Source: Nostoc sp. UHCC 0302
Lineage (GTDB): Bacteria > Cyanobacteriota > Cyanobacteriia > Cyanobacteriales > Nostocaceae
Assembly: GCF_038096175.1 (NCBI RefSeq)
Contig: NZ_CP151099.1
Coordinates: forward strand, 1,800,501 to 1,864,500
Direction: 5' to 3'
DNA: 64,000 nucleotides
In this document: in pieces, positions 29,814-35,099 of the stretch
Layout of the letters: each line of letters begins with the position of its first letter
How positions within the stretch are numbered: the stretch's first letter is position 1
The notes under the pieces: model-generated
Database searches by the model: none
Seen by the model: the letters and a program-made list of their open reading frames with translations, nothing else
Told to the model about the DNA's origin: nothing
Position numbers and translations under genes: made by a program

Positions 29814-31041
29814 GGTTGCACAACACGATCCTTTTGCAGCCCTGAGATTTCGCGACTATCGCTTATTTACGATTGGTCGTCTGCTGCTGTTCACGGGGTC
29901 GCAAATGCAGACTGTAGCGATTGGCTGGGAACTCTATGAGCGTACTAGCTCAGCTTTAGTGTTAGGTGGCGTAGGATTAGCGCAAGTACTGCCCATGATC
30001 GCCCTCACCTTGATTGCTGGAGATGTCGCCGATCGCCGTGCTCGCAAACTTACGATGTTGCTATCAGTGCTGCTGCTAGCCCTCTGCTCATTGGCTTTAG
30101 CGGTGCTTTCCTTTACTAAAGGTGCAGTTTTTCTAATCTACGCCTGTTTGGTATTAACAGGTGTTGCCAGGGCATTCTCGAAGCCTGCCAGTGATGCTTT
30201 GATGTGGCAATTGATACCAGTCAGCGCTTTTACAAATGCAGCCACTTGGAATAGCAGTAGCTTTCAGTTGGCCGCAGTCATTGGGCCAGCCTTGGGCGGA
30301 TTTGGGATTGCACTTCTGGGAAGTGCTACAGGAGTATATGTTTTAGCTGCGATCGCAGCTTTGCTGTGTTTTATTTTAACGGTAGCAATTAAAGAGAAAA
30401 AAACTACTCGCTCAACCGAGCCACTTTCATTTAAAGCACTGGCGGCTGGTGCTAAATTTGTTTGGCAAAATCAGTTGATTTTAGCAGCCATAACATTGGA
30501 TATGTTTGCAGTATTGTTGGGGGGTGCGATCGCACTATTACCTATCTTTGCCAAAGATATTCTGCACGTAGGGCCAGTAGAGTTGGGATATCTCCAAGCA
30601 GCCCATTCTATTGGTGCGTTGATTATGGCAGTTACCTTGGCATATCTGCCACCGTTACGCAAAGCCGGCCCAGCCTTATTATGGTCAGTGGTTGGCTTTG
30701 GCATTGTGACAATTATCTTTGGGCTTTCGCGTTGGTTTTGGCTGTCTATGCTGATGCTGACACTCGGCGGCGCACTAGATAGTATTAGCGTTGTGATTCG
30801 CCATACTTTGGTTCAAATTAGAACTCCTGATCATTTACGTGGTCGGGTTGCAGCTATCAACAGTGTATTTATTAGTGCCTCAAATGAGTTAGGCGGCTTT
30901 GAGTCAGGCTTAACAGCCGCCTTTTTTGGCCCAGTACTTTCTGTTGTTGGTGGTGGAATTGGCACAATTGTTGTAGTGATGGCAGTAGCTATGATTTGGC
31001 CAGGAATTGCCAAGTTAGGGGCATTGCAAGAGTTTCAATGA
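29773..31041 (+). CDS. MFS transporter (EntS/MFS_3-like)
   Basis: A 422-residue permease with twelve predicted helices. The loop 2-3 motif GDVADRRARKLTM (residues about 82-94) and the inter-domain loop EKKTTRSTEPLSFKAL are visible. The FRDYRLFTIGRLL start and RTPDHLRGRVAAINSVFI place it with the MFS_3 / enterobactin-exporter-like group. The stop codon is part of the ATGA immediately preceding the HEARO-like element, which abuts it. Confidence 0.92.
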   Translation: MSSSKQNSTPPNSEVAQHDPFAALRFRDYRLFTIGRLLLFTGSQMQTVAIGWELYERTSSALVLGGVGLAQVLPMIALTLIAGDVADRRARKLTMLLSVLLLALCSLALAVLSFTKGAVFLIYACLVLTGVARAFSKPASDALMWQLIPVSAFTNAATWNSSSFQLAAVIGPALGGFGIALLGSATGVYVLAAIAALLCFILTVAIKEKKTTRSTEPLSFKALAAGAKFVWQNQLILAAITLDMFAVLLGGAIALLPIFAKDILHVGPVELGYLQAAHSIGALIMAVTLAYLPPLRKAGPALLWSVVGFGIVTIIFGLSRWFWLSMLMLTLGGALDSISVVIRHTLVQIRTPDHLRGRVAAINSVFISASNELGGFESGLTAAFFGPVLSVVGGGIGTIVVVMAVAMIWPGIAKLGALQEFQ

Positions 31042-31263
31042 CCCCCACCTAGCTTAGGCTGAGGTGGGGGAGTGGTCGGAGATAACCCGACCGTAGCTGC
31101 GAATAGCTCAGCAGATGTTTACGGATCAGACACTACCAGTTACTTCTCTCGACTGGGTTATTTGTGAGGGGATGGAATCTTATCCAGCGAGGTTTAGGCT
31201 CGGACACACCGTAAGCATTGAGCTAAGAGACATTAAGTTTTGGGATTATCTCTCTAACAACTT
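31042..31263 (+). ncRNA. HEARO-like (IscB omega) RNA
   Basis: A 222-base structured stretch between an ATGA and an RRXRR/IscB-type reading frame, exactly where HEARO RNAs lie. It opens with a perfect 9-bp stem cccccacct / aggtggggg (31042-31050 with 31062-31070), then ggtcgg / ccgacc (31074-31092), then further short stems around gctgcgaatagctcagc. HEARO elements are known to sit directly downstream of ATGA or GTGA. Omega RNAs carry their guide at the 5' end, so the guide would come from the last bases of the MFS gene; that is an inference. Confidence 0.75.
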
Positions 31264-31744
31264 ATGCAACGAATTTCAGTTCTCAATCCAGATCATAGTC
31301 CTGCAATGCCAACAAAACTTCAACGCGCCGAACGTTGGGTCGAAGAAGGTAGAGCAGAATGGGTCTACACCGATTTGCGGATCAAGGCAGTTCGACTGTT
31401 GTCTGAACCGTCAGGACGCGAATCTCACTTCTGCACCGTTTGTGATTGTTCGTCGTCCACCTATTTCAAGAAGACAGCTTCACTTGATGGTTCCTTCTAT
31501 TGGGAATGTACCCCGTAAATATGGCGGAACAACCACGCGACATGGATTCAGAAAGGGGGATTTGGTCAAAGCAGAGATGGCAAAACGAATCAGTATTGGA
31601 TGGGTGAGTGGCGACACCACTCGTCAAATTAGTGTTTCCGATTTTGATTGGAAACGATTGGGGCAGTTTACTGCTTCTAAAGTTCAGTTGATCCGACGCG
31701 CAACGGGTCTACTGGTTTCGTGTCCACAGAGATTGTCAGTTTAG
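31264..31744 (+). pseudogene. Internally deleted IscB/IsrB-type RNA-guided nuclease remnant
   Basis: The first frame (from ATG 31264) gives the RRXRR N-terminus: SVLNPDHSPAMPTKLQRAER, then RLLSEPSGRE. Near 31410-31440 the homology jumps to the next frame, which continues PFVIVRRPPISRRQLHLMVP, KYGGTTTRHGFRKGD and SVSDFDWKRLGQFTASKVQL, the C-terminal region of IscB/IsrB. About 300 residues carrying the RuvC parts and any HNH domain are missing, and the frame is broken. It cannot encode an active nuclease. Confidence 0.8.
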
Positions 31745-31768
31745 CGGCTCGACGCCGCTAAACTGACA
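31734..31768. terminator. Perfect 15-bp hairpin at the end of the IscB remnant
   Basis: tgtcagtttagcggc / gccgctaaactgaca around tcgac; it overlaps the remnant's stop codon. There is no long T-run. It may mark the element's right end or serve as a bidirectional terminator. Confidence 0.6.
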
Positions 31769-31900
31769 CTCAAGCATCCTCCCCCACAGTAGTGCGCTCT
31801 TGATGGGGGTGTCTCGGAGAAATTGATGAATAGAGGCAACTGGAAGTTTAGAGTAAACAAATAAAGTCCGCTTATGCGGACTTTAAAAAGGGGATTATGA

Positions 31901-32068
31901 AAATTGGATGGGGATAGAAAACTAAGAAGTTTCAAGTTGCCTGAGTTAGTGCTATTGGCTTGGCAACAAGAACGCAACTGCACCGCAAGTAAAGTCATTT
32001 GGCGCTTTACTACTGATGATGCTCGTGTCAAACTTAAACATCTTTATCCGATTTTTGAAACCCAATAA
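31901..32068 (+). pseudogene. Transposase C-terminal fragment
   Basis: An open stretch of 55 codons ending in WRFTTDDARVKLKHLYPIFE, the kind of tail found at the end of cyanobacterial IS630-type transposases. It has no proper start and a TGA lies just before it. It is preceded by the hairpin agtccgcttatgcggact (31865-31882). Confidence 0.5.
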
Positions 32069-32556: not shown

Positions 32557-32787
32557 TGTTAAAAGTGCAAGATTTTTATCAGTAATAACACTCAACCGCT
32601 ACATCTGTAAATATTAATAAAATATACGGTAATATTTTTGGGTGCTAAGTATGTCAAACGTGCTACCTCAGTGCAAAAATCTGAAAGAGCAAGTTGAGTC
32701 TATATTAAACTTGTCCGAAATATTAACTTAGGAAAAGAAAAATGGTAAAACGTTAGATTGGGCGTCTACCATTTTCCACAATTAGTT

Positions 32788-33681
32788 ATGATTTTAGATT
32801 ATATACAAAAGTATCCACTACGAACAAAACAGATTTTAGGGATTAGTTACGAACAATTGCAATCACTGCTAAATTGCGCCTTAAAACGAAATCGATACAT
32901 CAAAGCTAAACAAGAGAGTCATAAAATTAGAATTAATGCGGCTGGTGGTGGTCGTCCCGAAAAGTTATCAACCGAAGAACAAGTATGTTTATGTCTATTT
33001 TATCTAAGACAGATGCCAACATTCCAAGTATTAGGAATGCTATTTGGTGTTTCCAAAACCGAAGCTAATGATACATTTCACGACTGGATACCAATTCTTC
33101 GTGATATATTACCTGCTAGTTTATTAGAACAAGTATCAAATAATGAAAGTGATTTACTATTTGTTCAAGAAGTATTAACAAATTTTAGGCTATTAGTCGA
33201 TAGCTTAGAACAGCCAATATATAGGGATTCTGACCAAAAAGAGCAACAGAAATATTTTTCTGGAAAGAAGAGACAACATACATTAAAAAGTCTGATAATT
33301 GGCATACCAGAAGGCAAAGATATTGTAGAGGTAGAAGTAGGTGTTCCTGGGCCAACAGCAGATATAAAATTGTTTCGTCAATCTCAAAATAAATTTGATA
33401 AATCTCAACCCTTTTCAGGTGATAAAGGCTTTCAAGGAGGTGAGAATATCACTACTCCTCATAAAAAGAAACCAAAACGAGAATTAACTCAACAGCAAAA
33501 AGATGAAAATAAGGCTTTATCTAGTAATCGGATATTCATTGAACATTTGATTCGATTACTTAAAATATTCCGCATAGCCTCACAAAGATTTCGCTTAAAG
33601 CTTGAGACGTATGAGCAGATTATTTTAACAGTTTGCGGATTAGTTAGGTTAAGAATTGGTAGCTTAGTTCTGCCAACTTAG
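32788..33681 (+). CDS. IS5-type (DDE_4) transposase
   Basis: A 297-residue transposase. The N-terminal helix-turn-helix (residues about 50-95: EQVCLCLFYLRQMPTFQVLGMLFGVSKTEA) precedes a DDE_4 catalytic core with Asp in LLVDSLEQPIY, Asp in FSGDKGFQGGEN and Glu in FIEHLIRLLKIFR, so all three acidic residues are present. A TTG 30 bases upstream is in frame, but ATG 32788 (MILDYIQKYP) is preferred. I could not find convincing terminal inverted repeats, so the element borders are unknown. Confidence 0.88.
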   Translation: MILDYIQKYPLRTKQILGISYEQLQSLLNCALKRNRYIKAKQESHKIRINAAGGGRPEKLSTEEQVCLCLFYLRQMPTFQVLGMLFGVSKTEANDTFHDWIPILRDILPASLLEQVSNNESDLLFVQEVLTNFRLLVDSLEQPIYRDSDQKEQQKYFSGKKRQHTLKSLIIGIPEGKDIVEVEVGVPGPTADIKLFRQSQNKFDKSQPFSGDKGFQGGENITTPHKKKPKRELTQQQKDENKALSSNRIFIEHLIRLLKIFRIASQRFRLKLETYEQIILTVCGLVRLRIGSLVLPT

Positions 33682-34044
33682 CTAGTAGCAAAAATCATAA
33701 ATTTTTAGAAATTAGGAGTTAATTTTTATGCCTCTAAATTATCACTAACTATCTCAAAGCCTTATAATTACGTATTTACGAAGATATCAAAGTTTTGCCC
33801 CAAAGCTTTGAACAGTCTGGCTTTGGAATTTTCGGACAAGTCTATTACAACTTTTACAACAAGAACCAACGCTACGTTCGCAAGACATTACACCTGTACA
33901 AACTTCTCTTGGTAAAGCAATTTCTCCAAAGTTTGAGATTGTGTTTGCAGGTGCATTTAGCGCGGGTAAGTAGGTAGGTGCCAAAAAAGTCAGCTATGTT
34001 AAGATATGTAAAGACTGATAATGCATCTACAAGGTAGTTGGTGT

Positions 34045-34500
34045 ATGGGTGCGCGTTTAAGGGTATTTCTGACTCCTGAGCAAGACCAAACTTTACTAAA
34101 TCTGAGAAAACAGGATGTACCACAGAAAGTCAAAGACAGGGCGGAAATAATCAGGCTAAATGCACATGGTTGGTATGTAGAGAAGATAGCAGATCACTTT
34201 GATTGTCACAAAAAAACAGTCACAAAAGTTTTGCATCAATGGCAAAAACTGGGCACAGAAGGGCTTTGGGAATCTCCTGGGCGAGGGGGGAAACCAAAGT
34301 GGCTTGAGGATGACATGATATTTTTAGAAGAATGCCTCAGAAACGAGCCACGCACATACAATAGTTCTCAGTTAGCTTTGAAGTTGAAAACAGAACGCAA
34401 CGTTGAGATGAGTGCCGACAGATTAAGACGGGTACTCAAAAAAAGGGGGTCGATTGGAAACGGACAAGGAAAAGCCATAAAGGAAAACAAGACCCAGTAG
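34045..34500 (+). CDS. IS630 transposase orfA (DNA-binding part)
   Basis: A 151-residue N-terminal part with two helix-turn-helix regions: RLNAHGWYVEKIADHFDCHKKTVTKVLHQW (residues about 35-64) and the SSQLALKLKTERNVEMSADRLRRVL region. ATG at 34045 (MGARLRVFLTPEQ) fits the family; an ATG at 34021 is also in frame. The homology continues in the -1 frame after an A7G5 run at about 34438-34449 (WKRTRKSHKGKQDP), so a fused product requires -1 frameshifting or transcript slippage. Confidence 0.9.
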   Translation: MGARLRVFLTPEQDQTLLNLRKQDVPQKVKDRAEIIRLNAHGWYVEKIADHFDCHKKTVTKVLHQWQKLGTEGLWESPGRGGKPKWLEDDMIFLEECLRNEPRTYNSSQLALKLKTERNVEMSADRLRRVLKKRGSIGNGQGKAIKENKTQ

Positions 34501-34529
34501 CACGAGCAAACAAGCAAGCAGACCTAGAC

Positions 34530-35099
34530 ATGTTGGAATTAGCTGCTGCCACTGGTGAAATAGACCTGAAATACCTAGACGAGTCAGGGTTCTGTATGTG
34601 GAGCGAACCTAGTTATACATATTACTTTAGAGGTGAGCAAAAACGGTTAGAACAGACTAAACGCCGTGGTCGCAGATTAAGTATTATCGGGCTTCTCCAA
34701 CCTTTAATCAGTTTTGTTTACGGTTTAGTTATCGGTGGTGTTGACCGTAAATCTTATATAGAAATGATGGAGAAAGAAGCCAAACAAGCCCAAGAAACTG
34801 GACGTATCAGCGTGATTGTGCAAGATAACGGGCCAATACATCGCTGCCAAGAAGTTCAACAATTGTGGAAAAAATGGGAAAGTCAGGGTTTGTACATCTT
34901 TTTTCTCCCGAAATATTGCTCAGAAATGAATCCAATTGAATTGGAATGGCAACATCTCAAGAAAGATGAGTTATCCGGGCAAGCATTTGATGATGAGCTA
35001 GATCTCGCTTACGCCGTCATCAATGGTGTTCAAGCTAGAGGAAAAAAAAACAATCACAACACACATCGTGTAAAATTTAGCTCTAGATTATCAACTTAA
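34530..35099 (+). CDS. IS630 transposase orfB (DDE catalytic part)
   Basis: A 189-residue DDE_3 superfamily part, with Asp in KYLDESGFCMW, Asp in VIVQDNGPIHR and Glu in MNPIELEWQHLKKDE, all intact. The frame is open upstream of the ATG at 34530 to about 34448, in the -1 frame relative to orfA, which supports synthesis as an orfAB fusion. The catalytic triad and clean ends suggest a recently active element. Confidence 0.92.
   Translation: MLELAAATGEIDLKYLDESGFCMWSEPSYTYYFRGEQKRLEQTKRRGRRLSIIGLLQPLISFVYGLVIGGVDRKSYIEMMEKEAKQAQETGRISVIVQDNGPIHRCQEVQQLWKKWESQGLYIFFLPKYCSEMNPIELEWQHLKKDELSGQAFDDELDLAYAVINGVQARGKKNNHNTHRVKFSSRLST

Follow-up and report, generated by a model that had tools for sequence, protein, structure and literature searches.

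The window analysed here is a stretch of 64,000 nt (contig 1, positions 1800501–1864500) of the 9.59 Mb genome of Nostoc sp. UHCC 0302. At the end of an MFS gene it carries a compact element in which a structured RNA is followed by two pieces of an isrB gene that lie in different frames (Table 1). The original prediction had described an omega/HEARO-like RNA followed by a crippled IscB or IsrB at 31038–31768. That reading of the locus is right for an omega/HEARO-like RNA accompanied by a crippled IsrB; the extent given there is wrong and is replaced by that in Table 1. Just past the insertion, a terminator-like hairpin (AAAGTCCGC/GCGGACTTT, window 31863–31884) can be read from the sequence. 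Further downstream, the window contains what we take to be transposase-like ORFs and a remnant (31904–32068, 32758–33681 and 34021–35099), judging by their translations.

Table 1. Parts of the IsrB-type element and its flanks, in window coordinates.
Feature	Position	Strand	Basis
Whole non-autonomous IsrB-type element, 792 bp, 5´ of ATGA	31034–31825	+	second copy with identical end points and different flanks; empty sites of relatives
Predicted guide, equal to the left flank (MFS gene end), its length of 20 nt taken from DtIsrB by analogy	31014–31033	+	position 5´ of the scaffold; PMC9581776
Left end TTCAATGA, element-borne	31034–31041	+	absent from empty sites of related elements
Left-end hairpin, putatively in the SL1 position of the DtIsrB omega-RNA by analogy	31042–31070	+	consensus structure, folding
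Omega-RNA scaffold, ends approximate	31034–31263	+	folding, covariation, match to model R1 (built partly from the window)
isrB remnant, codons 1–52 (PLMP domain)	31264–31419	+	Pfam RRXRR, alignment to P0003
Junction of the deletion (loss of about 662 nt by comparison with P0003)	31420–31423	+	alignment to P0003
isrB C-terminal (TAM-interacting) remnant and stop codon, in a frame different from the N-terminus	31424–31744	+	8dmb match, alignment
Inverted repeat near the right end, 18-nt arms, 94% complementary	31731–31771	+	similar repeat in G105 copies, by eye
Right end: imperfect hairpin, GGAG (31816–31819), six bases, then the target ATGA	31781–31825	+	read from the sequence
Host ATGA serving as target; predicted to be the TAM when the allele is empty	31826–31829	+	empty sites of relatives, flanks; NTGA TAM of DtIsrB (PMC9581776)

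The N-terminal ORF resembles the RRXRR proteins (Pfam PF14239, E=1.7e-4, 21.9 bits, under the 25-bit cut-off) and continues out of frame to 31518, giving 84 aa. The C-terminal region matches the solved IsrB structure 8dmb with an E value of 6.1e-14. As the reference for an intact relative we used P0003, which has 388 residues from its first ATG and, as read from alignment and length, no HNH. P0003 matches IsrB 8dmb over residues 2–370 of 388 (E=1.3e-39), whereas IscB chains match it over the first 175 residues or fewer only, which identifies the reference relative as an IsrB and not an IscB. PADLOC assigned no family to P0003, and NCBIfam returned no match for the two isrB remnants. Compared with P0003, the window gene retains codons 1–52 and, further on, the part that starts at residue 275; in between, 4 nt stand in place of 666 nt of the P0003 gene, so that 662 nt are lost and the frame is shifted. 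RuvC I–III and the bridge helix, located by eye from their motifs, are absent. Because RuvC I–III are deleted in both copies present in this genome, the window isrB is a remnant and not a functional IsrB, and on the evidence of its sequence the window copy cannot make a nickase. The predicted loss of the nuclease core is therefore borne out by the shortfall against P0003. The predicted IscB-type N-terminus out of frame with its C-terminus is right as to the fusion and the frame, which the RRXRR and 8dmb matches support, and wrong as to IscB, the relative being an IsrB. Matches to the C-terminal region at E≤1e-10 occur in 101 of 291 genomes of the order, and the 60 named loci found with the window's C-terminal domain all have cyanobacterial titles.

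The region 31042–31255 folds to −77 kcal/mol, compared with a mean of −62.7 for shuffled sequences (z −3.3), and none of 200 shuffles is as stable. In an alignment of eighteen RNAs, with the window as the first row, the consensus structure has 42 pairs, and 24 of them show compensatory changes, against a shuffled mean of 15.6 (0 of 500 shuffles). Paired cells amount to 94.5%, against 81.6% after shuffling, and fall to 51.5 or 48.5% when the partners are slid by one column. The window RNA retains 38 of the 42 consensus pairs, in a consensus that includes the window itself. The structured RNA ahead of the gene is thus confirmed, and the element carries it, as an omega-RNA, at full length. R1, a covariance model of the first part of the RNA (159 positions, built partly from the window), matches 34 of 291 genomes at E≤1e-6, under strict filters and with at most 10 candidates scored per genome. 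Among the R1 matches below 70 bits, at least 14 of 24 have an IsrB C-terminus 441–921 nt downstream on the same contig and strand, as compared by hand. Candidate RNA-only copies in G145, G028, G080:C68 and G218 were rejected, since in 14 of 16 stretches the contig ends just past the RNA.

The Rfam HEARO model (RF02033), proposed with the original prediction as a check, gives no match in the window even at E≤10. Applied to 20 other loci, it gives eight matches of 32–62 bits, all below the gathering score of 83; these fall on 8 of the 12 more distant IsrB loci and on none of the 8 close-subgroup loci (tested at E≤1). Such a miss is not unusual, because RF02033 matches 65% of such 5´ regions according to PMC9755519. 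The prediction was to fall if the model gave no match and no related RNA stood beside other IscB-type genes; there is no HEARO match, yet related RNAs adjoin IsrB genes in other cyanobacteria. The window RNA, unmatched by RF02033, is a conserved structured RNA directly upstream of isrB.

The boundaries were read from the empty sites of relatives. For 6 insertion sites in the genus of G009, 13 comparisons were made, and in each the element is missing and the left flank runs directly into ATG; the joint reads ATGA in 12 of the 13 and ATGC in one, and small indels lie near it in four (sites G038a and G194). These comparisons took places that span both flanks; matches to a single flank were excluded, as were a pair of places (in G171 and G097) where the left flank is represented by just 11 bases. 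The empty sites define an element that runs from TTCAATGACC to TTG and lies 5´ of a host ATGA, without duplication. Insertion immediately 5´ of ATGA without target duplication is shown for these close relatives, and reading it across indicates that the window element probably inserted in the same way. In G105, a block from TTCAATGACC to TTTTTGATGAA is common to the 12 fetched copies, which lie in 12 different surroundings and have, as judged by eye, a similar inverted repeat at the same place near the right end. TTCAATGA or ATCAATGA forms the left end of all 25 parsed copies of the close subgroup. The ATGA at 31038, directly before the RNA, had been taken for the integration site; the empty sites rule it out as the target, since it is part of the element-borne left end, and the target is the ATGA on the other side of the element. 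Terminal hairpins, a fixed short target motif, the lack of a target duplication and empty sites, the last being those of related elements, are all found, as in ISC transposons. Left-end hairpins of other forms were also seen: in one copy of G105 (L067, 547–763) the hairpin loop has the opposite orientation to that in the genome's other copies, and in G099 (L062, near 1501) the hairpin almost abuts a right-end-like sequence, giving a minimal-MITE-like stretch of about 50–55 bp with putative ends.

The insertion has changed the MFS gene very little. TTCAATGA places TTCA between the left flank and ATGA and provides a new stop codon for the MFS gene. When the window flanks are joined in silico, the C-terminus LQEFQ* of the occupied allele becomes LQEYE*, and the C-terminus EYK*, which is close to LQEYE*, occurs in 19 of the 29 MFS homologues listed. 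Because TTCAATGA supplies a stop in that frame, the insertion altered the last two MFS residues only. For the site occupied in the window, no empty allele turned up in a genus represented by one genome or among gene-end homologues of the family that are at most 89% identical; the search of the family matched 121 of 217 genomes, whose gene ends are without insertion and too diverged to provide an exact empty allele, and which served solely for comparing C-termini. A match between the guide and the MFS gene end, also proposed as a check, holds by construction, because the guide is the flank.

A second copy of the element, with the same deletion, lies on contig 1 of the same genome at 5281243–5282034. 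The two copies differ at 3 of 792 bases, their flanks are unrelated, and the identity is confined to the element. The earlier expectation that the RNA could be mobilised agrees with two copies that share a deletion and differ in their flanks, and as far as sequence comparison can tell the second deleted copy suggests, as its best reading, spread after the deletion. The locus is thus very probably a non-autonomous derivative of an IsrB-encoding IS200/IS605-like (ISC) transposon, which carries an orphan omega-RNA and moved in its deleted form. This suggests that an omega-RNA element can spread after the loss of its nuclease.

A Y1 (TnpA-type) transposase acting in trans would move the element by its terminal hairpins. 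The host genome has four Y1 matches, and a weak pattern test over 1.5 kb on each side found no matching ends near them. A similar hairpin, CCCCCACC/GGTGGGGG, is present at some tnpA loci of G009, G038 and G099, and a scan for autonomous tnpA partners in seven relatives (at least 38 matches; 30 loci scanned) returned chance-like matches only, with up to two mismatches. That neither a matching transposase nor a cognate IsrB was found in the genome, and that the ORF is frameshifted, would also suit a dead remnant which decayed in place, whose copies stem from segmental duplication or gene conversion and whose RNA and ends are inactive. We regard this as unlikely: the similarity of the two copies stops at the element ends, 789 of their 792 bases are identical, and the ends agree with the empty sites of relatives.

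The RNA appears to be an orphan in this genome, in which the scaffold and the MFS-end guide are kept and no cognate nickase was found. A search with the C-terminal region at E≤0.001 matched only the two deleted copies in the host genome, and the RNA search with R1 found no further RNA copies there beyond these two. The search for intact IscB or IsrB genes and identical RNAs elsewhere in the genome, as proposed with the original prediction, therefore yields a near-identical second copy and no intact IsrB of the group. The host genome (G000) also contains three intact RRXRR-HNH ORFs of about 430 aa (G000:C1:2887191, G000:C2:84341 and G000:C3:118292) and one RRXRR fragment. The three ORFs are identical over the compared stretch and belong to another subfamily, with the HNH recognised by eye, and the C-terminal search did not pick them up. 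At one of these copies the upstream identity stops at the ORF start. The suggestion that an intact IscB elsewhere uses the RNA in trans is thus unsupported: such use in this strain would need an RRXRR-HNH protein to accept a foreign RNA, and nothing supports that.

The retention of 38 of 42 consensus pairs, together with the statement in PMC9581776 that standalone omega-RNAs can function with IscB, could be taken to mean that the RNA is under selection, is partnered by an outside IsrB or IscB and still gains nicking or homing at the donor site. Intact pairing is weak evidence of function here, since no stop codons interrupt the isrB remnants either, from which it follows that the deletion may be recent. 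Since the genome has yielded no cognate IsrB, the resident RRXRR-HNH proteins were missed by the C-terminal search, the deletion looks recent and a further short derivative (L165 of G122) has kept less than half of its RNA, we consider a trans-acting element distinctly unlikely and keep to the non-autonomous transposon derivative.

Internal deletions have arisen in other members of the group. Seven clear cases keep both isrB ends (the window, L017, L047, L061, L234, L236 and L241), and an eighth (L023) is complex; the 27 loci examined were picked for short frames or known deletions, so that seven does not represent a frequency. None of the 60 named loci has an internal isrB deletion, in a comparison that could miss deletions with matches overlapping by more than 60 nt. 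The two ends are fused in frame in five of the seven (L017, L047, L061, L234 and L241), a count of at least five having a chance of about 0.045 at 1/3 (calculated by hand), but we find it very improbable that truncated isrB encodes a functional small protein (PLMP, or PLMP with the TAM-interacting domain) that acts in the manner of a nuclease-dead repressor, by binding the omega-RNA or blocking the TAM, given that the window copy is out of frame, that the in-frame count is marginal and post hoc (0.088 with L023 counted as shifted) and that such deletions are absent from the 60 named loci.

The arrangement of the ends suggests how an intact member might operate. According to PMC9581776, DtIsrB uses a 20-nt guide 5´ of the scaffold and nicks next to NTGA, with a preference for TTGA at 60 degrees; an NTG TAM is given for CwIsrB and DsIsrB, which are cyanobacterial; and the first stem loop is dispensable for nicking and may serve mobility. 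In an intact member, the guide of the omega-RNA would be drawn from the left flank, and IsrB would nick the empty allele, in which that flank is followed by ATGA, an NTGA TAM. The occupied allele would be spared, as the flank is there followed by TTCA, which is not a TAM. Natural IsrB elements with empty-site boundaries thus allow a predicted guide, TAM and self-sparing spacer to be read directly from genomes.

The target ATGA is often the beginning of a downstream reading frame. For the close subgroup 26 copies were chosen and 25 parsed, as the pattern failed to recognise the right end of L166; the set does not include L079, an orthologue of L077. A frame of 60 codons or more begins at the target ATGA in 16 of the 25 copies, compared with 71 of 522 ATGA sites of the window and 19 of 152 non-genic insertion points. 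When an upstream in-frame stop is required, 11 of 25 copies qualify, compared with 26 of 522 window sites (p=1e-8) and 19 of 152 insertion points (p=1e-4). Among the 60 named cyanobacterial IsrB loci (L248–L307), some of which share one genome, 31 are followed by an ORF of 60 codons or more that starts from an ATGA 15–120 nt after the isrB stop; such a start follows only 2 of 87 control ORFs (Fisher p=6e-13), which were open frames of 150 codons or more taken from either strand instead of called genes. The 25-copy and 60-locus sets overlap, with sites that look the same (L006/L249, L009/L250 and L014/L251), and are not fully independent. Purging of gene-breaking insertions could explain part of the excess, which the controls address in part, and a possible preference for ATGAA (12 of 12 in G105) could explain another part, the controls not being ATGAA-matched.

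In 24 of the 25 close-subgroup copies the right end has GGAG at a distance of six to eight bases from the ATG that follows, and in one it has GGAA; the pattern that defined this end required GG[AG][AG], so the motif is present partly by selection. Many other subgroups are without GGAG in the 60-locus scan, which did not require the motif. The GGAG of the close subgroup resembles a Shine-Dalgarno sequence, and the second copy in the host genome sits at the start of a gene that we take, from its sequence, to be rpiB-like. We tentatively propose, as a reading that falls a little short of an even chance, that cyanobacterial IsrB elements are directed to start codons: their target and TAM (NTGA) would often be a downstream ATG-A, and the right end of one subgroup would give a Shine-Dalgarno sequence at a workable distance and swap the leader without breaking the gene. 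The window element would then be a nuclease-less, RNA-bearing and still-spreading passenger of this class, with one copy at the rpiB-like start and one re-terminating the MFS gene. No report connecting the target motif of IsrB with start codons was found in the open-access literature searched, whose coverage does not extend to the founding papers. The counts point to such a link, with translation signals in the transposon end of one subgroup.

Standalone omega-RNAs, which are said in PMC9581776 to work with IscB, resemble the window RNA in being full omega-RNAs without an intact effector of their own; the window RNA differs in that no cognate effector was found in this genome. The OMEGA IsrB systems (DtIsrB and the cyanobacterial CwIsrB and DsIsrB) share with the locus a PLMP N-terminus and a C-terminal TAM-interacting domain, a large 5´ omega-RNA with covarying stems, and a putative guide flank followed by an NTGA motif, the last in empty sites of relatives. 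Unlike in these systems, the window isrB is without RuvC and the bridge helix, and its frame is shifted. The Rfam HEARO RNA (RF02033) occupies the same position upstream of isrB or iscB and has sub-threshold matches at 8 of 12 distant loci of the IsrB family; unlike it, the window and the 8 close-subgroup loci tested show no match. Non-autonomous elements of the IS200/IS605 family, presumably those called MITE-like and PATE-like, likewise keep terminal hairpins and have lost an internal part, use a short target motif without target duplication and have apparently multiplied after the deletion. Unlike these, the window element keeps a full omega-RNA and two pieces of isrB.
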